Source: Anaeroplasmataceae bacterium (GTDB lineage Bacteria; Bacillota_I; Bacilli_A; Acholeplasmatales; Anaeroplasmataceae). Taken from it: a stretch of 64,000 nt of DNA. Below the pieces are notes generated by a model, which was not told where the DNA came from, did no database searches, and saw nothing but the letters and a program-made list of their open reading frames with translations. The position numbers and the translations under genes are program-made. Location of the stretch: NCBI GenBank assembly GCA_029067355.1, contig JAIEEQ010000010.1, forward strand, positions 1 through 64,000. Reading direction: 5' to 3'. Below are positions 37,422 through 47,797 of the stretch, in pieces. How positions within the stretch are numbered: the stretch's first letter is position 1; every line of letters begins with the position of its first letter.

Positions 37422-40400
37422 ATGTTAAAAAAAATAAAATTGAAACCACGGAGACTTTGCTTATTGGCATCGCTCTTCGTTTTACTTATATCGCTGGGGA
37501 GTTGTAGTTCAGCGGGAAAGCCAGTTGGAAATTTAGATAAAGATAGCATTTATCTATCTGCTGGAAACTACTCTGTAACCAAAGGAGAGCTCTGGGAGGA
37601 GCTACGTTGGAGTGCTAATACGATTCTAACAGATAAAATTACAGAGGTTGTAATGAAAGACTATGTGGAAAAGGTTGAATTGATCATTGACAAATCCTAT
37701 ACAGATTTATCTGAGAGTCAAAAAAAGCTTTTTGCTGACAATTTCACAGATGAAGATTTCAGCAATCTAAGAGCCTTTTATGAGGAACGCTTAGAAGATT
37801 ATGTGATTGAAGACATTTACAACTTTAATTATAGCTCTACAAATAGCTACGATTCAATTAAGGATGTATCTGAGTATGATGCAAAGAAGCTGATTATTCA
37901 GTATAGTGATGAATTATATTCTAATTATAACATCAAGCAATTTAACAATCAGGATGTACAAACATTTGTAACTGAAGCTGTTGAAAAAAGAGAAAACTAT
38001 CTTACTATAGCAAAAGAACTTAAATCTGTATATTATTTATCTCTAGCAAAAGAGCTGCTTGCCTACTCTAAGTTAGAGGAGGATATAAAGGATGCTTTTG
38101 ACAACAGAGATCCAGACAATGAAGATGATTTAGGTTATTTCACTAAAAGTGAATATACAAACAAATTTAAATCAGATTTTGCAAATCAATCCGATTTAAA
38201 TTTAGTTTTAATTCATTTTTCCACAGAAAAGGAATATACTTCTACACTTCGTTCCTTTGGACTAAAGGTATATGAGAATAATTTAGTTTATATTCCTTAT
38301 CCTGAAGATATCAAAAACTTCTCAGAATATTGCACCTATTATGATGAGTTAACCTCAAATGATTTAAGAGGTTCAGACAAATATCAGAATCTAAATACTT
38401 TAGCTATTGCTCAGCTTTATATTCAAATCTACAATTATCTTTATGGTGGATATAGAAATTATATTTATGATGACTCTTATGTTCAATATTTTGATAAGGT
38501 AGAGGATTTGATAAAAATCACTGAAGATATTCGTGAAAAATCTCAAGCTGTTGCAGCAAATGAGGAAGCTGAGGTTAATAAGATTCGTGATGCCTTAGCA
38601 AATGCGGATTTGAATGAAGATGAAATTGGTACAATTTACACTAGAGAAGACATCAACAAAATTTCAGATTCCTTCTCTACCTATTTGTATGAGACACTTT
38701 GCTTACCTTTTAAGGCTGAAGCTGATGATGATAGTCTTTGCTATTCTACTTCTACCCAAAGCTATAATAACTCCTATTGGATTGCCTTTAAATTTGATCA
38801 GGCTGAAGACCAATATGAGGATATGTATAATAAAAACACAATTGATGATGATTTATATGATAGTATTGCAGCAAATGAAGAGCTTAAGGCTGAGATTGAA
38901 AAGCTTTTAAAGAGAGATAAAATGCTTGAAAATAGTATCACAAATGCTGTTAAGGAAAGAACAGACGAAGTAAAGATTAGCATCTATGATGAAGCCTTAG
39001 AGATTGCTTATGCAACAAGCAATGCTGGCTATTCTAAAACCTATGGAAAAGCTCCTAATAAAAATGTAATTGCTACATTAAAGTATGATAATAAAACATG
39101 GAATTTAAACATTGTTTCTGATGATCAAGATCAAAATGCCCTAGATGAAGGTGTGTTTGACATTTTAGAAAGAACAAATGGAATTACTACTGCAATTGAT
39201 ATATTAAGTAAAAAGGTAGTGAAGGGCACGAAGGCTTATGCTGATACTGAAAAGGATACTCAGCAGTATAAAGAAGCCTTAGAATTTGTATTAGCCGCAT
39301 TCTCAAATGATTACTATTCAACAAGTGGTTATCCTTCTTCTATTGGTAAGTATAACTTTATGATGCTATATTTCCATTCCGTAGATATAAATCATATCGT
39401 TTCAGAAAATTATCGTGTTAATGCAGCTGCTGCTAAATTATTAACAAACTATAACTCCAATCAATTGTTAGAATTTTTCAAATCCTATTCCGATAATATT
39501 TATAGCAATCACTTCTCTATTGGCGGAAAAAGATTAGTTGTCTTCCGTGATGCAGATGATGATTCTAAAAAAGATGATGTTTCCACTTGGACAGAGCATC
39601 AAAAGAGATTGGCTCAACAATTAATTCGTCAAATCTATAATGAAGTGTCCTCTACAACAGGTGCTCATGCTGATGCTTTATCAACAATCGTAAGTGAAAT
39701 TCAGGATTCTGCACGTGCAAAATTTGAAGATAATCCTATTGCCCCAGAAAATAAATGGGCTGAATATCGTAAGGCTGGTTTAAGTGTAGAATTAGAAGAT
39801 GTTACAGCTGATAATTCCACAACCTCCTTAGATTTCAAATTAAAACAACGCCTATATGATATTTTCTATTCTTCTTCTTATAGTATTGTTCATGGTACTG
39901 ATCATACAATTCCAACAGAATATATGGAAGATTTACAAGATCCAAATACTACAATTTTAGAGACAAAGGATGGATACAATCTATTATTAATCACTTCTGC
40001 TGATTTCCAAACCTCTGCTAAATTTACAGAAGAGGACGACAAGCTTAAGATATTTGAAAACCTTTCTGTTTATTACAATGAAGAATATCATCAAATAGGA
40101 AGTGTTTATAATGAAGAGGATAAATTATCCTTAGAACAAATCCGCTTGTATGTATTAGAATATGTATCAAGCTCAACTTCTAATCTTTCACCTTCAAACA
40201 TCTCTTCTGCTTTATCTAGCTTCTTATCTCCTGTTATTTCAAGATATACAGCAAATGAAACACAAAGAGATATCGTAATTTATTTAATTGAAACGAAGGC
40301 TGGTCCTCTTCAGTTTACAGAAAGCAATATTGATCGCTATGAAAGAATTCTAGAAATCAATCATAGTACTGCTGATGACTATATTTCTATTTATTTTGAG

Positions 40401-40499
40401 GAAGACACAACAAACACTTTAAAGACCTATGAAAATTGGTGGACAGATTTACAAAAAATTGTTGCAGATATCCTATTAACGGAAGGAGAGGATGCATAA
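37422..40499 (+). CDS. Large parvulin/SurA-like lipoprotein (1025 aa)
   Basis: Lipobox SLGSC; SurA_N-like start 'YSVTKGELWEELRWSANTILTDKITEVVM'; parvulin-end-like 'ILETKDGYNLLLITSA'. Confidence 0.6.
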   Translation: MLKKIKLKPRRLCLLASLFVLLISLGSCSSAGKPVGNLDKDSIYLSAGNYSVTKGELWEELRWSANTILTDKITEVVMKDYVEKVELIIDKSYTDLSESQKKLFADNFTDEDFSNLRAFYEERLEDYVIEDIYNFNYSSTNSYDSIKDVSEYDAKKLIIQYSDELYSNYNIKQFNNQDVQTFVTEAVEKRENYLTIAKELKSVYYLSLAKELLAYSKLEEDIKDAFDNRDPDNEDDLGYFTKSEYTNKFKSDFANQSDLNLVLIHFSTEKEYTSTLRSFGLKVYENNLVYIPYPEDIKNFSEYCTYYDELTSNDLRGSDKYQNLNTLAIAQLYIQIYNYLYGGYRNYIYDDSYVQYFDKVEDLIKITEDIREKSQAVAANEEAEVNKIRDALANADLNEDEIGTIYTREDINKISDSFSTYLYETLCLPFKAEADDDSLCYSTSTQSYNNSYWIAFKFDQAEDQYEDMYNKNTIDDDLYDSIAANEELKAEIEKLLKRDKMLENSITNAVKERTDEVKISIYDEALEIAYATSNAGYSKTYGKAPNKNVIATLKYDNKTWNLNIVSDDQDQNALDEGVFDILERTNGITTAIDILSKKVVKGTKAYADTEKDTQQYKEALEFVLAAFSNDYYSTSGYPSSIGKYNFMMLYFHSVDINHIVSENYRVNAAAAKLLTNYNSNQLLEFFKSYSDNIYSNHFSIGGKRLVVFRDADDDSKKDDVSTWTEHQKRLAQQLIRQIYNEVSSTTGAHADALSTIVSEIQDSARAKFEDNPIAPENKWAEYRKAGLSVELEDVTADNSTTSLDFKLKQRLYDIFYSSSYSIVHGTDHTIPTEYMEDLQDPNTTILETKDGYNLLLITSADFQTSAKFTEEDDKLKIFENLSVYYNEEYHQIGSVYNEEDKLSLEQIRLYVLEYVSSSTSNLSPSNISSALSSFLSPVISRYTANETQRDIVIYLIETKAGPLQFTESNIDRYERILEINHSTADDYISIYFEEDTTNTLKTYENWWTDLQKIVADILLTEGEDA

Positions 40500-43306
40500 T
40501 GAGAAACTATAAGAAATTCTTCTTACTATGTAGTGTTGGATTACTTGCACTATCCGTTGCTTCTTGTGACAAAAAGGAAAAAAGAAATACCTCTGTACCT
40601 CTTTCTGATTTAGATACCTCTACTGTTATCGCTTCTAGTAAAGATCATGAAGTAAATAATGGATTATTCTATACAAGATTACGTACAAAGGGCTATAATA
40701 CTGTATTAAATGAAATTAGAAAATCCTTATTTGAAGAGGAATACGCATTTGTTACTTCTCAAATAAACTTAAACGATTCTACTGTAAATGATTATGAGCA
40801 AGAATTATTTGATTCTTATGCAAATGACATATTTGGTACTTCTTCTATCTCATCCATTGAAGATTTATCTGAAAAGGATCGTGACATTGCTATACAAAAA
40901 TTTATTGATTCCTCTATGAACAAAGGAATTACTGTCACTAAGGAAAACTGCTTAAGCTATTCATTTGAAAATGAAAAGATAAAATTTTCTTATATCCCTC
41001 AAGATATTATCAATGAAAAGCTGATAACAATTGCTCTGAATAAGGGCACAAAGGACGCCTTAGAAAAAATCGTAGATGAAGAAAAAATTCAAGATGATGA
41101 TGACAAAACTGTCAACAATTCCAATTATATTTCTGAGTCTAACTTATCTAATTATTATGATTCTCATCAAAAAACATATGGTACATATCGCGCTATTATC
41201 ATTCAGTTTAACAACCTAAATGAAGCAAGAAATGTTATCTCTACTGTTGAAGCAAGAATGGGTCGTACATTAATGGATAGTGATGCAGATAGCTTTGCAT
41301 TAGAATTCTACGTAAACCTATATAATACCTATTACAATTACAGACCTGCTTTAAGCATATCTGATCCATTTGGAAATTCAAACGATTCTTCTAAAACTGT
41401 ATTCACTGTAAATAAAAATAAGAATGAGCTTTCTGAAATGTCAACTGGAATATCTGGACTTGTCACAGAAACACTTGAGGAAGATGGCCAATATATTAAA
41501 CAGCCATTTAATCAGAATAGCAAATATGTAATGATTTATAGAGGAGCAACAGAATTTGAATTAAATAAAACGTACAATATTACTCCATATAATGAGCAAA
41601 TTGAATGGAATGATTTAAAAGAGCATGAAGTAGCCTATAATGATATTAGAGCTGAAGTAAGAGATGAATTGATTGATAACAAAATTGCTTCCTATACTTC
41701 TACTGTAATTGAAAAAAGAGTTAAGAATGCAGATATTGAAATCTATGATCCTTACTTTGAAAATCAGTTCAAATCAGCTTATTCTGATGAATATGAGTAT
41801 ATTGCACCAAATCAGTTTAATAATGATTTAATATTCAAATTAACTACAAACTCTAAAACAAAAGAGTATTCTGTAAATGAATTTTATACAGCGCAGAGTA
41901 AATTAAGTGGGATTGATATTATCGTTGAACAGCTTAAGCTAGATTATGTATATGATTTAAAGGACAAGTTCCTGGATTCAGATCAATTAAATGATTTAGA
42001 GGATTCTTTAAACAATGCCATTACTTCTTTTAACAAAAATGAAAACACTGCATATCCTTCTGCAATGGGCTTAGAAACCTTCTTACTTGCAAACTTTGGA
42101 TATACAACAAAAGAGGATGCATTAAAATATAACAAGATTGCCTCCAGTGCTTTGACAGAGTATTTAAACCAAAAGGTATTTGATGAATGGGCAGTAAAGA
42201 ATAGTGATGGAACTTACCCTGATACCCATGATATTGATTATGAGAAGCTAAATATTTTGGATAATCTTTTAGCCGCTGGAAATGCGAACTATTCAAATCT
42301 TTTTTCTATCAATATTGATCACATTCTGATTTTTATTGATGATGATGGAGATGGAAGTCCAGATGATCCAGAGGATTTCCTAAAGAATTTCTCTGACAGA
42401 CAAAAACAAGACTTTAATGATGCTTTATTAGAGCTTGCAAATGCAATTTATGAGGAAGCAAATTGTGATGAATTAACAAGATCTAATTCAATTCTAGAAA
42501 TTCTTCAATATATAGTTGGTGCATATAACCGCAATGAACGCCTGTTCTCTGATAAAACAAAGACTTGGGAAGATTACAAAAAATATAATTTCCTTTTAAC
42601 AGCTGAATCTCTTTCCTCAAATGGTGATACTACTCAAAGTAATGTATCTACCTATGTTGAAGAATTTGGTACTTATATTAAGGACCTTTATAAAAAGGCC
42701 GTAGAAAATGATTTAAAGATTGAGGATAAGAAATCTAAGTTCTACTTTATTGAAAGCCTTGAAAAAGCCCCTGAAAATATTGAAGATTTATGTGCAACTC
42801 AATTTGGATATCATATGATTGTTGTAAATAGTTATAGTAAACCTTCTACAACGAAGAGTACTTCTTCTTCTGATCAATATGGATATTATAAAAATATTGA
42901 AATACTAATCAATGAGTTGGATAAGGATACAACAGATGATAATATCTATGTTATTGTTCCTGATGCTTATAATGAAGAAGAAAACAAGGCTACAATGAAT
43001 CAATTTTTCACCTACTATGTACAAAAACAAACTGGAGTTACCTCTTCTCTTGATTCAACACTTCGTGATGTTTTAAGCTCAATGTTTGATTCTTCTATTA
43101 CAAGATATACTTCTACTGGATTCCAAAACTATCTATTATTTAAAGAATTAAATATCAGTGTAGCTAATTCCAATTCAATTCTTGCACAACAGCTTGCAAA
43201 TTATGAGGGTTACCTAAAGAGAACATCTCAGGAATACAAGACAGATGATGAATTTGAAGAATGGTATGACGGAACTCTAAACTGGTCTAGACCTTACGAA
43301 AAATAA
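40499..43306 (+). CDS. Large parvulin/PrsA-like lipoprotein (~935 aa), translationally coupled
   Basis: Start ATG at 40499 overlaps the upstream TAA (TAATG); lipobox SVASC; 'INIDHILIFIDDDGDG...LCATQFGYHMIVVNSY' resembles parvulin start and end strands. Confidence 0.65.
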   Translation: MRNYKKFFLLCSVGLLALSVASCDKKEKRNTSVPLSDLDTSTVIASSKDHEVNNGLFYTRLRTKGYNTVLNEIRKSLFEEEYAFVTSQINLNDSTVNDYEQELFDSYANDIFGTSSISSIEDLSEKDRDIAIQKFIDSSMNKGITVTKENCLSYSFENEKIKFSYIPQDIINEKLITIALNKGTKDALEKIVDEEKIQDDDDKTVNNSNYISESNLSNYYDSHQKTYGTYRAIIIQFNNLNEARNVISTVEARMGRTLMDSDADSFALEFYVNLYNTYYNYRPALSISDPFGNSNDSSKTVFTVNKNKNELSEMSTGISGLVTETLEEDGQYIKQPFNQNSKYVMIYRGATEFELNKTYNITPYNEQIEWNDLKEHEVAYNDIRAEVRDELIDNKIASYTSTVIEKRVKNADIEIYDPYFENQFKSAYSDEYEYIAPNQFNNDLIFKLTTNSKTKEYSVNEFYTAQSKLSGIDIIVEQLKLDYVYDLKDKFLDSDQLNDLEDSLNNAITSFNKNENTAYPSAMGLETFLLANFGYTTKEDALKYNKIASSALTEYLNQKVFDEWAVKNSDGTYPDTHDIDYEKLNILDNLLAAGNANYSNLFSINIDHILIFIDDDGDGSPDDPEDFLKNFSDRQKQDFNDALLELANAIYEEANCDELTRSNSILEILQYIVGAYNRNERLFSDKTKTWEDYKKYNFLLTAESLSSNGDTTQSNVSTYVEEFGTYIKDLYKKAVENDLKIEDKKSKFYFIESLEKAPENIEDLCATQFGYHMIVVNSYSKPSTTKSTSSSDQYGYYKNIEILINELDKDTTDDNIYVIVPDAYNEEENKATMNQFFTYYVQKQTGVTSSLDSTLRDVLSSMFDSSITRYTSTGFQNYLLFKELNISVANSNSILAQQLANYEGYLKRTSQEYKTDDEFEEWYDGTLNWSRPYEK

Positions 43307-43465: not shown

Positions 43466-44232
43466 TTATTTATTATATTTGCCTCTAGGTTTACCAGGTA
43501 AAGCATTAGAAATTTTATCAGAAGAGCCTCTTATTATGGCATCATGATTTAATACATAAAGAATGCGATTCCTAGTTCTAGGGAAATTATAAAAGCCATA
43601 AGCATTAGCGAATAATTGTTTAATAACAAGATTTCTACGTTCAATATAGCCATTGTGAATTCTATGACCATTATAAGTGGAGAAGGAATTCACAATTTCT
43701 TTTTTCCATTTTTTCAACAAATGAACAAAAGGAATATATTCATAAATTTTTGAAACTGAAAATTCTTGAATTAAATCAGTAAGCCTGTCTTCAGCGTCTA
43801 GAATAGAGGCTGAAGAATTAAAAGATCTGTAAGCTTCTTTTAAATCATAAGCGAGTTGAAATTCAGGGTCAATGGAGAGTATGGTAGAACGGATTTGGTA
43901 TTTACTCATTACCTCACCTGTAACCTTATTTATACAATAGTATTCTTTGAGTTTAAGAAAGTCTTTATAAAGAACAAAGTTATACTTTTTAAGAAGCCAA
44001 TACAGGCTAGAACGTTCCTTTTTCAAATACTCATATTTTTTTAGAAAAGAGATTCTAATTTTATTAAAATAAAACATTAAGTTCTTTATCACATGAAAAG
44101 AATCAGCACAATTACAATTAGGGAAAGCAGTTTTAGCCACATCTTTATAGGTATCCCAAAGGTCAATAGAGACATATTTGACTTTTAAGCGTTCACTTAT
44201 AGAGTATTTGGCAGTAAAATCAAATAAGTCCC
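43466..44232 (-). pseudogene. ISL3-family transposase fragment (C-terminal DDE part)
   Basis: LFDFTAKYSISERLKVKYVSIDLWDTYKDVAKTAFPNCNCADSFHVIKNL...NGYIERRNLVIKQLFANAYGFYNFPRTRNRILYVLNH; different frame from the adjacent upstream fragment. Confidence 0.85.
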
Positions 44233-44454
44233 ATTATAATGGTGTTTAACAAGTCTTTTCGTATAGACTTCATCAATACAAATTACAGGAGTTAACTTAC
44301 CTAATCCAAAGGATATTCTATTATCAAAAACAGATTGAACATAGGACGGGGAGGTAGATGTAAGCTTCGCAGCTTTAGAGTAAGTCATAGTAGGGTTTAA
44401 GCGTTCAAATGGACACAATAAACTAAAATTAGAATTAAAGCAGCCTAAATTCAA
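44197..44454 (-). pseudogene. ISL3-family transposase fragment (HTH and first catalytic region)
   Basis: MTYSKAAKLTSTSPSYVQSVFDNRI...VICIDEVYTKRLVKHHYNG then frame loss. Confidence 0.8.
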
Positions 44455-44455
44455 T

Positions 44456-44494
44456 GTAAAAAGTAGCCTTGGCTTTATAAAAAGTCGAGGCTAC
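44456..44494 (-). terminator. Terminator of the AAA ATPase gene
   Basis: Minus GTAGCCTCGACTTT-ttat-AAAGCCAAGGCTACTTTTT (two mismatches). Confidence 0.7.
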
Positions 44495-44515
44495 TTCTGT
44501 GTTTAATATTTGCTT

Positions 44516-46306
44516 CTAAAAATTTTCTTCAAATTCTTTCAGTTTAGCGATTTCTTCCAAAATTACAGATGATCTTACTGTACCTTCTACGTGAGCGACG
44601 TCATCCATACCTATTGTTTGTTCTTCGCCTTTTTCTAAAGAATCTTTAATTGCGCTCATTTTTAATTTTTCACAAAATTCTTTAATGTCAGCGCCGTTAA
44701 ACCCTTCAGTAATTTTTGCTAAATAATCATAATCGAGATCGTCGGCAACAGGCAACTTCCTTAATTGAATCTCAAACAATTTCTTCCGCGCGATAAAATC
44801 AGGTAACGGAACATAAATTTTTTCATCAAATCTTCCCGGACGCAAAAAGGCGCTATCTATCATCCAAGGTTTGTTAGTAGCGGCAATGACTACAATAGTT
44901 GAATTTGTTTTACTTGACCCAACACCTTGCATTTCTGCCAATATTTGCGGGACAAGGTCATTATTTCCATTCTCGCTGTTATCTGTTCTTTTTGCGCCTA
45001 TTGCCTCAAATTCATCAAAGAAAATGATTGCTTTCCTTTCTTTCCTTGCATTAGCGAATATTTGCTTAACCTTTTGTTCTGATTCGCCATACCATTTTGA
45101 TTTAATATCAGAACACTTTATAGAGAAAAATTTAGCATCGATTTCATTTGAACAAGCCTCTGCGAACATAGTTTTACCTGTTCCGGGTAGCCCATACAAT
45201 AAAATGCCGCCGCCAGCTTTTTTTCTGAACTTTTCAAATATTTCGGGGTTTTCAAACGGAAGTATTACTTTATCTCTAAACGCTTCCTTTACCGTTTCTA
45301 AGCCGGCAATATCGGTAAATGTGATATTACTTTTATATGTAGCTGTTTTCTTTTTTTGTTGCGTTTTTTCCGTAGTTCTTAAAGCGTTGACATTTTTGTC
45401 CTCTATTTCCTCGTCATTTTCACTGACTATCAAATCAATTAAATCTGCTTTGTTTAATGTAGAATAGCCTTTGATTCCATTATCCCTACAATACTCCTTT
45501 AACTCACTAACACTAAACATTGCTAAACTGTCAGGATCATCAATATAATCTGAAACACTGCCATCAACTCCTTCTTCACAAGAACGTGGCGAAATGTAAG
45601 TTCCACCGCCAAACCCAAACGATGCTTCTTCAACTATATACTTAATTAAATGAGCTAAGAGTATTATTAAAATAGCCGCTATCAAACCACCAAGAACGAT
45701 CACTACTGGAACCCAGTTAGTTGTTATTGCAGAGAATATACCACTACCAACAGGCCCAGCCAGAATGATGAATAATATCCACCAATAATCGCTCAGAATA
45801 TCTCCGATATCATCTAACTCTAAATCATTTACTACCATTACAATTATATAGATAATTGCGGCTATGCTGGCAATAACAATGGTTATAATAAACCAAATTT
45901 TATATGTATCCCAAAAGGACGAGAATTCAGCAGCCCAACTTTTATACTGTATTTTTGTGATTTCTCCTTCAACATCAAAATAACATCTTTCAAATGATTC
46001 TTCGCCATGCTTTATTTCTATACTATAACTCTTTTTGTCATCTTGTATGATAAGCGAATCACCATTATACAAATCAAAATAAACGCTTACAGAATTGATA
46101 TTATATATAGAATTGTTTTTGAATGTAGTAGTCCAATTTATACGAGTTGTATTTTCCGAAGCATTATATTGACAAGTATATTTGAAATCAGAACCTGTTG
46201 ATAAATACGCTTCTTTTTCCGTTGATTGACAACCGGTTAAGGTAAATAGCACTAACACGAATAGCAAACTGAAGAATATAAACCGTTTAATTTTGCTCAT
46301 TATCAT
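44516..46306 (-). CDS. Membrane-anchored AAA ATPase with lipoprotein signal, SAP-like motif
   Basis: Lipobox LTGC; TM segments; SVSELKEYCRDNGIKGYSTLNKADLIDLI (SAP-like); Walker A GLPGTGKT, Walker B IIFFDEFEAIG, SRH NKPWMIDSAFLRPGRFDEKI. No M41 peptidase domain. Confidence 0.85.
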   Translation of the reverse strand: MIMSKIKRFIFFSLLFVLVLFTLTGCQSTEKEAYLSTGSDFKYTCQYNASENTTRINWTTTFKNNSIYNINSVSVYFDLYNGDSLIIQDDKKSYSIEIKHGEESFERCYFDVEGEITKIQYKSWAAEFSSFWDTYKIWFIITIVIASIAAIIYIIVMVVNDLELDDIGDILSDYWWILFIILAGPVGSGIFSAITTNWVPVVIVLGGLIAAILIILLAHLIKYIVEEASFGFGGGTYISPRSCEEGVDGSVSDYIDDPDSLAMFSVSELKEYCRDNGIKGYSTLNKADLIDLIVSENDEEIEDKNVNALRTTEKTQQKKKTATYKSNITFTDIAGLETVKEAFRDKVILPFENPEIFEKFRKKAGGGILLYGLPGTGKTMFAEACSNEIDAKFFSIKCSDIKSKWYGESEQKVKQIFANARKERKAIIFFDEFEAIGAKRTDNSENGNNDLVPQILAEMQGVGSSKTNSTIVVIAATNKPWMIDSAFLRPGRFDEKIYVPLPDFIARKKLFEIQLRKLPVADDLDYDYLAKITEGFNGADIKEFCEKLKMSAIKDSLEKGEEQTIGMDDVAHVEGTVRSSVILEEIAKLKEFEENF

Positions 46307-46928
46307 ACACCTCGCTTGTCGGTTCGTTGCTGTTTTTGCCTATCACATTTTCAAGTTTAATATCATGGGCCGCATGAGCAACTATTGTTTTTTTACAATT
46401 ATCATCACCATAGAAATTACCATTTACTTTGACGGAACCATATTCTGACTTCGCATTAACATTCACTAATGTTGTATTAAAATATTTTAACCTGATAATT
46501 CCATATTCGGATTGTAAATGTAGATATGTAAAATCAAATAACGATAGTTTTATATCATGTGCAGATTGAACTTGCAGATTGCTTATTGTAGACTTGATAA
46601 TATTGAGTGCGCCATATTGACTAATAATCTTACAAATTTTCAAGTTGGACTTTTTAATTTTAATATCGTGTGGAGCATATATCTGAATAGAATTCGTCGC
46701 TATTTCTTCGCACTTGATTGAACCATAATTAGATTGCAATACGATTTCCTCTAACGGAAAGTTGGGTATAATGAGTGTAATGTTTCCGTGTCCCGACGAA
46801 GCATACAATCTACCATCGTTTATAGAAAACTCCGCAGAACACTTAAACGATATTCCTCGCTTTATGATTATTGTATGTGCTGCTTCTAAATGGATTGAAG
46901 TAAATCCAGTATTGATATTCTTTTCCAT
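46287..46928 (-). CDS. DUF4097-like beta-helix/repeat protein
   Basis: Alternating repeats SGHGNI/SNYGSI/APHDIKI/SQYGAL/SAHDIKL/SEYGII/SEYGSV/AAHDIKL. ATG at 46928 preferred. Overlaps the AAA gene start by 20 nt. Confidence 0.65.
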   Translation of the reverse strand: MEKNINTGFTSIHLEAAHTIIIKRGISFKCSAEFSINDGRLYASSGHGNITLIIPNFPLEEIVLQSNYGSIKCEEIATNSIQIYAPHDIKIKKSNLKICKIISQYGALNIIKSTISNLQVQSAHDIKLSLFDFTYLHLQSEYGIIRLKYFNTTLVNVNAKSEYGSVKVNGNFYGDDNCKKTIVAHAAHDIKLENVIGKNSNEPTSEVYDNEQN

Positions 46929-47115
46929 AGATGACTCCCAATCTATATATGATATATTATAGCAAATAAATCGACAAAAATCAACACAACAAAACACAAC
47001 TAAATAATTACTTTATACATATTGTGAGATTGGCGCATAAGCTTGTATTAAAAAAATCAAATGTACCATTGCGTCAAAATCTTTTTTCAAGTCCCATAAA
47101 CGGGACACGAAAGTA

Positions 47116-47144
47116 TTGCAACGAACAAAAGTTTGTGATATAAT
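47116..47144 (+). promoter_or_regulatory. Sigma-A-type promoter for the structured RNA region
   Basis: TTGCAA (47116-47121), 17-nt spacer, TATAAT (47139-47144); hairpin begins at the predicted start site. Confidence 0.65.
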
Positions 47145-47147
47145 GCA

Positions 47148-47410
47148 CACTACCACAACCTACATTGTGGTAGTGTACCCTTATAGGGTAGGAGTTCTGC
47201 GGTGGGCGTAAAGAGTTCGTCCACAGGAAGGCAGAAGGTTTTGGGCGAACAGTCCGCCCGTGCCTTAGCTTACGGATAAAGCGTAGGTTTTTTAGTTGTA
47301 CGCAAAATTCGTTAGCCGTGATAGGCTTTTATTGGCGTACAGTTTTGTATGACAATGAGTGCAACCGGAGTTATCCGAGATCTCTTTGAGAGTGCGAAAG
47401 TCGGATAGTG
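47148..47410 (+). ncRNA. Candidate structured non-coding RNA, family not recognised (3' end uncertain)
   Basis: Series of helices: CACTACCACAA/TTGTGGTAGTG (47148-47175), TACCC/GGGTA (47176-47190), GGGCG/CGCCC (47204-47208/47255-47259) enclosing GTTCGTCC/GGGCGAAC (47215-47222/47243-47250), AGCTTACG/CGTAGGTT then T-run (47267-47293), GTACGC/GCGTAC (47298-47340), TATCCGA/TCGGATA (47372-47407). No ORF; GC visibly above flanks. Confidence 0.6.
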
Positions 47411-47482
47411 TTGATGGTCTATTTTGTGTTACAAATTTTTCGGTTAAGGAGTATCTTTTGAACTAAACCATTACTTACAATC

Positions 47483-47797
47483 TCATAGAATGGCTAACCA
47501 CCATAGAGCAATAGGATTTTTTTCTAAAAAGTATTTACAACAATCCTTACATTGAAATTTTCTTCTATGAAGTTTTAAAATGGTTTTATGATTTACAAAA
47601 ATGGAATAGTTCAATTTAGAAGTAACAGAAGAGACAATTTTAATGTGATTAGAATTACAATTAGGACAAACAGGTGTAGAAAGATTGAGATAGATATTTA
47701 GGATTGTTTCATCCTCATTTGTGATAGTTTCAAAAGATTTATCAATATTAATATTTAGATGTGTTAATTTAAAAAGTTTTAGTGTATAATCATTCAT
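47483..47797 (-). pseudogene. ISL3-family transposase N-terminal fragment (zf-ISL3 zinc finger)
   Basis: CPNCNSNHIKI...HRRKFQCKDCCKYFLEKNP, then divergent from family expectation. Confidence 0.85.

Follow-up and report, generated by a model that had tools for sequence, protein, structure and literature searches.

Within the window, meaning the whole 64,000-nucleotide stretch of DNA that was analysed, the principal feature is a 596-residue ORF on the minus strand, recognized from the ORF list and its translation, which encodes a predicted membrane-anchored lipoprotein ATPase of the AAA type (Table 1). Across the same interval the plus strand contains many stops; a sequence-only reading had placed a gene here without stating a strand, and the ORF itself is real. 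From N- to C-terminus, the protein comprises a lipobox signal, a beta-sandwich, three transmembrane (TM) segments, a linker, a Rho_N/SAP-like helix-loop-helix, a further linker and an AAA module with its lid, both linkers being loose. The anatomy described in the sequence-only reading, i.e., a signal, an extracytoplasmic part, TM segments and a full AAA domain, was borne out by motif scan, hydropathy, Pfam and homologues.

Upstream of the AAA gene is a gene for a Toastrack (DUF4097) protein, present as a single copy in the genome, whose last 20 nt are shared with the beginning of the AAA gene, making co-transcription and translational coupling of the two likely. Toastrack is an intracellular, sub-membrane assembly or scaffold domain of envelope-stress systems (PMC11237479). 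In pairing a cytoplasmic Toastrack protein with a membrane protein in one operon, the locus resembles the PSP and Lia envelope-stress systems, although this is a feature of the present genome only, as a Toastrack gene stands beside the AAA gene in no other family copy examined. Furthermore, unlike the PSP and Lia systems, there is no adjacent PspC or LiaI-LiaF-TM gene, and no PspA in the genome. A candidate promoter precedes the Toastrack gene, with matches to the consensus being overall no commoner than in shuffles, and a strong terminator-like hairpin follows the AAA gene.

Together, the two genes make up a cassette of ~3.07 kb (about 44437-47506) that interrupts an ISL3-type transposase between residues 97 and 100. 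The interrupted ISL3 region spans positions 43466-47797 of the window, and an intact ISL3 paralogue exists in G000:C59 (L093:517-1710). At the cassette ends, the search for target-site repeats gave weak, chance-like repeats only and no clear pair, and neither a recombinase or terminal repeat of the cassette's own nor any RNA family within it was found. The segment upstream of the candidate promoter (47040-47505) has no match in plasmids or in the other family genomes. Other copies of the family lie next to tRNA genes (L010, L012, L023) or phage tail and holin-like genes (L011), some follow pheT, and copies in other genomes are near Fic, HNH, DNA methylase or PADLOC candidate-defence genes, the neighbours not being conserved across the family. 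The ISL3 insertion, along with the copies adjacent to tRNA genes and prophage, speaks for an accessory gene that has moved horizontally. Elsewhere in the window (37422-43306, plus strand), there are genes for two adjacent lipoproteins of about 1025 and 956 residues that look like tandem paralogues.

Table 1. Features of the AAA locus, with window coordinates, strand and basis of each assignment
Feature	Coordinates	Strand	Basis
Membrane-anchored lipoprotein AAA ATPase (predicted), 596 aa	44516..46306	-	ORF and translation, Pfam/NCBIfam, homologues
Lipoprotein signal peptide with lipobox LTGC, residues 1-26, predicted lipid-anchor Cys C26	46229..46306	-	Sequence, motif scan
Extracytoplasmic beta-sandwich, residues 27-136, FxLYD-like at most	45899..46228	-	AlphaFold2, pLDDT 89, seven strands
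Three-TM membrane bundle, about residues 136-228	45623..45901	-	Hydropathy; AlphaFold helices, low-to-moderate confidence
Rho_N/SAP-like helix-loop-helix, about residues 256-300, accessory	45407..45541	-	Pfam Rho_N, AlphaFold helices
Classical AAA module, lid and Vps4-side C-terminal helix, residues 326-596	44519..45331	-	Pfam, alignment, tree, motif scan
Toastrack (DUF4097) protein, 213 aa, no signal or TM	46287..46928	-	Pfam DUF4097 E=5e-12; sequence
Candidate promoter TTGATT-17-TATAAT with TG, 28 nt before Toastrack ATG	46956..46984	-	Consensus scan
Strong terminator-like hairpin directly after AAA stop	44461..44496	- (scanned as + match; stem symmetric)	Hairpin scan
ISL3-type transposase N-terminal piece, aa 1-97	47507..47797	-	tblastn, intact paralogue G000:C59 as query
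ISL3 transposase remainder, aa 100-391, decayed	43526..44436	-	tblastn

The N-terminal half of the AAA protein is covered by no curated family in Pfam and NCBIfam profile searches. Its lipobox occupies residues 23-26 in a motif scan, and the predicted lipid-anchor cysteine is invariant across 11 aligned homologues. The extracellular beta-sandwich of ~105 residues obtained only generic beta-sandwich matches in a fold search against the PDB, none of them below an E value of 1e-3, and no match in a PDB sequence search; its resemblance to FxLYD (NCBIfam NF038353) is weak (E=0.03; 14.2 bits vs a cut-off of 23). After the signal, hydropathy places TM segments at about residues 140-158, 177-195 and 199-217, and, since the predicted lipidated cysteine is outside and the number of TM segments is odd, the AAA domain probably resides in the cytoplasm. 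A stand-alone relative of this half, i.e., a lipoprotein with the beta-sandwich and TM segments and without an AAA domain (L130:1486-2181), indicates that the lipoprotein-sandwich-TM half constitutes an independent module.

The helix-loop-helix, for which AlphaFold models helices at residues 266-275 and 286-301 with moderate pLDDT, is a better match to Rho_N than to SAP. On the whole protein, Pfam Rho_N scores 24.7 bits vs a cut-off of 24.9, with SAP also below its cut-off; on the N-terminal half scanned alone, Rho_N reaches 25.7 bits vs 24.9 and SAP 15.8 vs 23.9. Among the domains that the sequence-only reading had raised, AAA was matched, along with AAA_lid_3, and SAP and FxLYD remained below their cut-offs. 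There is also a weak resemblance to the SAP domain of Ku70 (E=0.012). Based on the alignment, the module is missing from two family members (L021, L023) and degenerate in three more (L016, L011, L017). Its core has a net charge of -2 to +2 in nine members, with no basic nucleic-acid surface, and the corresponding stretch in the window's protein is net acidic (-9 over 49 residues), such that nucleic-acid binding is unlikely as a core function. We interpret the segment as accessory, either a spacer or an element that binds protein, with binding to nucleic acid unsupported.

The AAA module itself is complete, matching Pfam AAA (E=1.9e-39) and AAA_lid_3 (E=3e-9) and containing a Walker A motif (GLPGTGKT) at residue 372, a Walker B motif (IIFFDE) at 427, a second region of homology (ATNKPWMIDSAFLRPGRFD) at 476 and a sensor-2 GAD at 538. 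All of the catalytic motifs are present and, in the alignment, invariant across the membrane family. The intact Walker A/B and SRH motifs and the end of the protein soon after the lid could be located as the sequence-only reading had claimed, and the protein is likewise without a protease, there being no HExxH in the motif scan and no Peptidase_M41 among the Pfam matches listed. In NCBIfam, CDC48, PAN and CdvC score higher than FtsH, and none comes near its cut-off (FtsH, 202 vs 600; CDC48, 233 bits vs 803), and the closest PDB match, for sequence as well as fold, is the D2 domain of p97. In a tree of 48 AAA domains, none of them from eukaryotic Msp1/ATAD1, the membrane AAA family is a single clade (98/96) nested in soluble AAAs of Firmicutes. 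A larger group made up of these Firmicutes AAAs, Woesearchaeal AAAs and two from the virus collection joins an Asgard Vps4 (96/89) and is separate from FtsH, PAN and the two domains of CDC48; given the length of the Vps4 branch, placement on the Vps4 side is the softest part of the tree. The likening of the protein to the FtsH type therefore fails, as the genome has a normal FtsH (L002), the tree puts the AAA in a different clade, and an AU test rejects an FtsH origin or grouping (p-AU 0.0005). A grouping with CDC48 D2, another of the affiliations that phylogeny was expected to decide, is rejected as well (p-AU 0.0006). Forcing the membrane family together with the Vps4 sequence alone is likewise rejected, which points to a separate lineage on the Vps4 side of the classical AAAs. 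Judged by sequence-based membership tests, the protein is not an FtsH, a CDC48, a canonical Vps4 or an IetA.

About 15 full-length homologues were found, most of them in metagenome-assembled genomes (MAGs) from Bacilli and Clostridia of the gut (L009-L018, L020-L023, L099). Frameshifts disrupt two of the copies (L014, L022), and a third (L013) lacks an intact start. Carriers amount to 5 of 395 genomes in a class sample and 5 of 392 in a phylum sample, the two samples overlapping. The family extends to very small genomes, including a 0.67-Mb mollicute genome that reads UGA as Trp, where the gene adjoins a DNA methylase gene (L100:1-3294). Hence, the architecture, which the sequence-only reading had allowed might prove common and of known role, is rare, patchy and under-described, appears to be undescribed as a family, and has an N-terminal half without a curated family. 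Patchiness of this kind suggests an accessory role rather than housekeeping quality control. Searches of phage, plasmid and viral-contig collections matched the AAA domain only; no phage or plasmid match extended over 80 % of the protein, and viral contigs held no relative of the N-terminal half. Compared with an 85%-identical copy in an Anaeroplasma bactoclasticum MAG, i.e., from the same genus as the window's genome, dN/dS is 0.09 overall, with values of 0.06 for the extracytoplasmic domain, 0.07 for the TM segments, 0.09 for the SAP-like segment and 0.04 for the AAA domain, relaxation being confined to the signal and the two linkers. From the shared genus, the window's organism is probably Anaeroplasma-like, a gut bacterium with wall-less relatives. 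The protein, including its extracytoplasmic, TM and AAA parts, is under strong purifying selection. Given this value and the retention by homologues of the lipobox cysteine, extracellular domain, TM segments and AAA domain, the 596-residue frame is not a product of chance.

Pore loop 1 reads KWYG (residues 404-407) and is invariant in all 14 membrane members examined; the equivalent positions are MFVG in this genome's FtsH, KWLG in Asgard Vps4, KWVG in CDC48 D2 and KFIG in PAN. In Msp1/ATAD1, X1 and X2 of the KX1X2G loop are both aromatic, X2 usually being non-aromatic elsewhere, although Cdc48 likewise uses a double aromatic (PMC7018516). Both aromatics are needed in ATAD1 (PMC9273213), and function depends on the W and Y of the Msp1/ATAD1 loop, which are well suited to holding on to membrane substrates (PMC7018516, PMC9273213). 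Double-aromatic loops also occur in CDC48 D1 (KYYG/KFYG) and in soluble relatives of the present family (KWFG in L024; KWYG in L054, L025 and L006), and, because the soluble relatives share them, KWYG favours membrane extraction without being proof of it. The likeness to Msp1/ATAD1 goes further, in that a membrane anchor lies N-terminal to one Vps4-side AAA, there is no protease, and a C-terminal helix follows the lid; the anchor-before-single-AAA arrangement takes the form here of three TM segments, a linker, an optional Rho_N-like segment and one AAA. However, Msp1/ATAD1 is mitochondrial or peroxisomal, belongs to the AAA meiotic clade and has one TM segment, whereas the family here is bacterial, has three, and adds a lipid-anchored extracellular beta-sandwich and the Rho_N/SAP-like segment. 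The likeness is thus best read as one in the way of working; membership in the Msp1 family is not claimed, the tree containing no eukaryotic sequence. Like FtsH, the protein is a membrane AAA with a small extracytoplasmic domain, but it differs in clade and pore loop and has no M41 peptidase, FtsH being encoded separately. As to CDC48/p97/VAT, Cdc48 also extracts membrane proteins and p97 D2 is the best PDB match, yet the present protein has a single AAA and no N-domain. Vps4/CdvC and the soluble AAAs of Clostridia (L024, L027, L033, L049, L054) share its AAA super-clade and a similar C-terminal end, but have a helical docking domain (MIT in Vps4/CdvC) in place of the lipoprotein/TM N-terminus, and the family here is membrane-anchored and differs in pore loop and in having no ESCRT-III-like partner in 13 carrier genomes.

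Reading function from sequence, we judge it about even (probability roughly 0.5) that the protein is a membrane-anchored, protease-free extractase or unfoldase that works like Msp1/ATAD1 and has an extracellular sensor or anchor. The starting points are observed features, namely the domain order, ATPase motifs, pore-loop signature, clade, conservation and operon overlap. In such a scheme, a hexameric ring of AAA domains would sit against the cytoplasmic side of the plasma membrane, where its double-aromatic pore loops would use ATP to pull a membrane or membrane-associated protein through the central channel, leaving the extracted substrate uncut. The external, lipidated beta-sandwich and the TM bundle would hold the ring in place and select or sense its substrates, a flexible cytosolic adaptor may be provided by the Rho_N/SAP-like segment, and, in this genome, the cytoplasmic Toastrack scaffold might be co-made as a partner or regulator. 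Supporting the extractase are the invariance of KWYG, a single clade apart from FtsH, PAN and CDC48, the Hsp70 gene beside the soluble sister L025, and purifying selection; counting against it are the double aromatics of soluble relatives, the non-conserved neighbours and the patchy distribution. More tentatively, the family may represent a bacterial counterpart of Msp1, i.e., a mobile, protease-free membrane-protein dislocase with an extracellular sensor, derived within Firmicutes/mollicutes from a Vps4-side AAA whose soluble relatives in Clostridia have ESCRT-III-like neighbours.

Those soluble relatives also prompt a different explanation. In Clostridia, they have a helical N-terminus (MIT-like by eye only) and a Vps4_C-like C-terminal end (L024, 20.6 vs a cut-off of 21.3), and adjoin coiled-coil proteins with sub-threshold Snf7 similarity (E=4e-5 for L027); these traits, and the joining of the AAA clade to Vps4, would suit a remodeller of the Vps4/ESCRT kind that disassembles a membrane-bound polymer, with the TM anchor replacing the N-terminal docking domain of Vps4. 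Yet, an ESCRT-III-like coiled-coil partner was found in 0 of 13 genomes with the membrane AAA, both control genomes being positive, and this finding and the lack of PspA make polymer disassembly less likely; as the pore loop is also not of the Vps4 type, the remodeller is clearly unlikely. A mobile accessory trait, e.g., an anti-phage one whose extracellular domain detects phage entry or damage to the membrane and whose AAA then targets a membrane protein of the phage or the host, would agree with the patchy distribution, the cassette inside the transposase gene, and the copies near tRNA, phage tail/holin-like, Fic, HNH, DNA methylase and PADLOC-candidate genes, as well as with the PADLOC IetA models that match the AAA domain. 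This is nonetheless rather unlikely, given no conserved defence partner, candidate neighbours that belong to very common families, an IetA score of 105 bits vs a cut-off of 510, and no close relative in the phage, plasmid and viral collections, though such a trait could share extraction as its biochemical activity. IetS is the partner of IetA in the IetAS anti-phage system; IetAS as such was rejected, IetA being below cut-off and the genes adjoining the AAA being Toastrack and ISL3 pieces, not IetS.

Two further proposals concern what the AAA might be coupled to. It might act as a proteolysis adaptor, unfolding membrane proteins and passing them to a separate protease such as FtsH or ClpP, as AAA unfoldases often feed proteases and the genome has FtsH; however, the family has a single AAA without a protease domain and no conserved protease neighbour, an M13 peptidase lipoprotein gene following in one genome only (L018), so that we regard the adaptor as quite improbable. 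The sequence-only reading had favoured an unfoldase, remodeller or sensor linking the cell surface to DNA or RNA. Its unfoldase/remodeller part is plausible, but the tether to nucleic acid is extremely improbable; Rho_N scoring at the Pfam cut-off and the Ku70 resemblance are in its favour, whereas the supposed SAP-like link is missing from two family members, degenerate in others and acidic in this protein.

Removal of membrane proteins in bacteria is usually attributed to proteases such as FtsH. If the extractase reading is true, a conserved membrane AAA with an Msp1-type pore and no protease would constitute a distinct, non-destructive route of removal, and bacterial Vps4-like AAAs would be tied to membrane quality control. 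The family would also make it possible to ask directly whether a double-aromatic pore loop is by itself enough to predict the extraction of membrane proteins.

Several observations were made on the wider group of Vps4-side AAAs. The Vps4-like AAAs of L024, L027, L033, L037, L049 and L054, with their ESCRT-III-like coiled-coil neighbours, constitute a candidate bacterial ESCRT-like system, and a band-7-type gene is, by eye, nearby in L024 and L027. An Hsp70 gene comes directly after the soluble sister AAA in L025 (L025:7554-11318), and the soluble AAA of L054 is followed by what by eye is an Hsp70-like gene (L054:2542-5191). Two viral-collection contigs encode a Vps4-side AAA (L101:5120-6759, L102:5731-6822), the former preceded by a gene for a 197-aa coiled-coil protein. 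Finally, another Anaeroplasmataceae Vps4-side AAA (L006:375-3795) lies in a run with two genes that, by eye, are von Willebrand-like.
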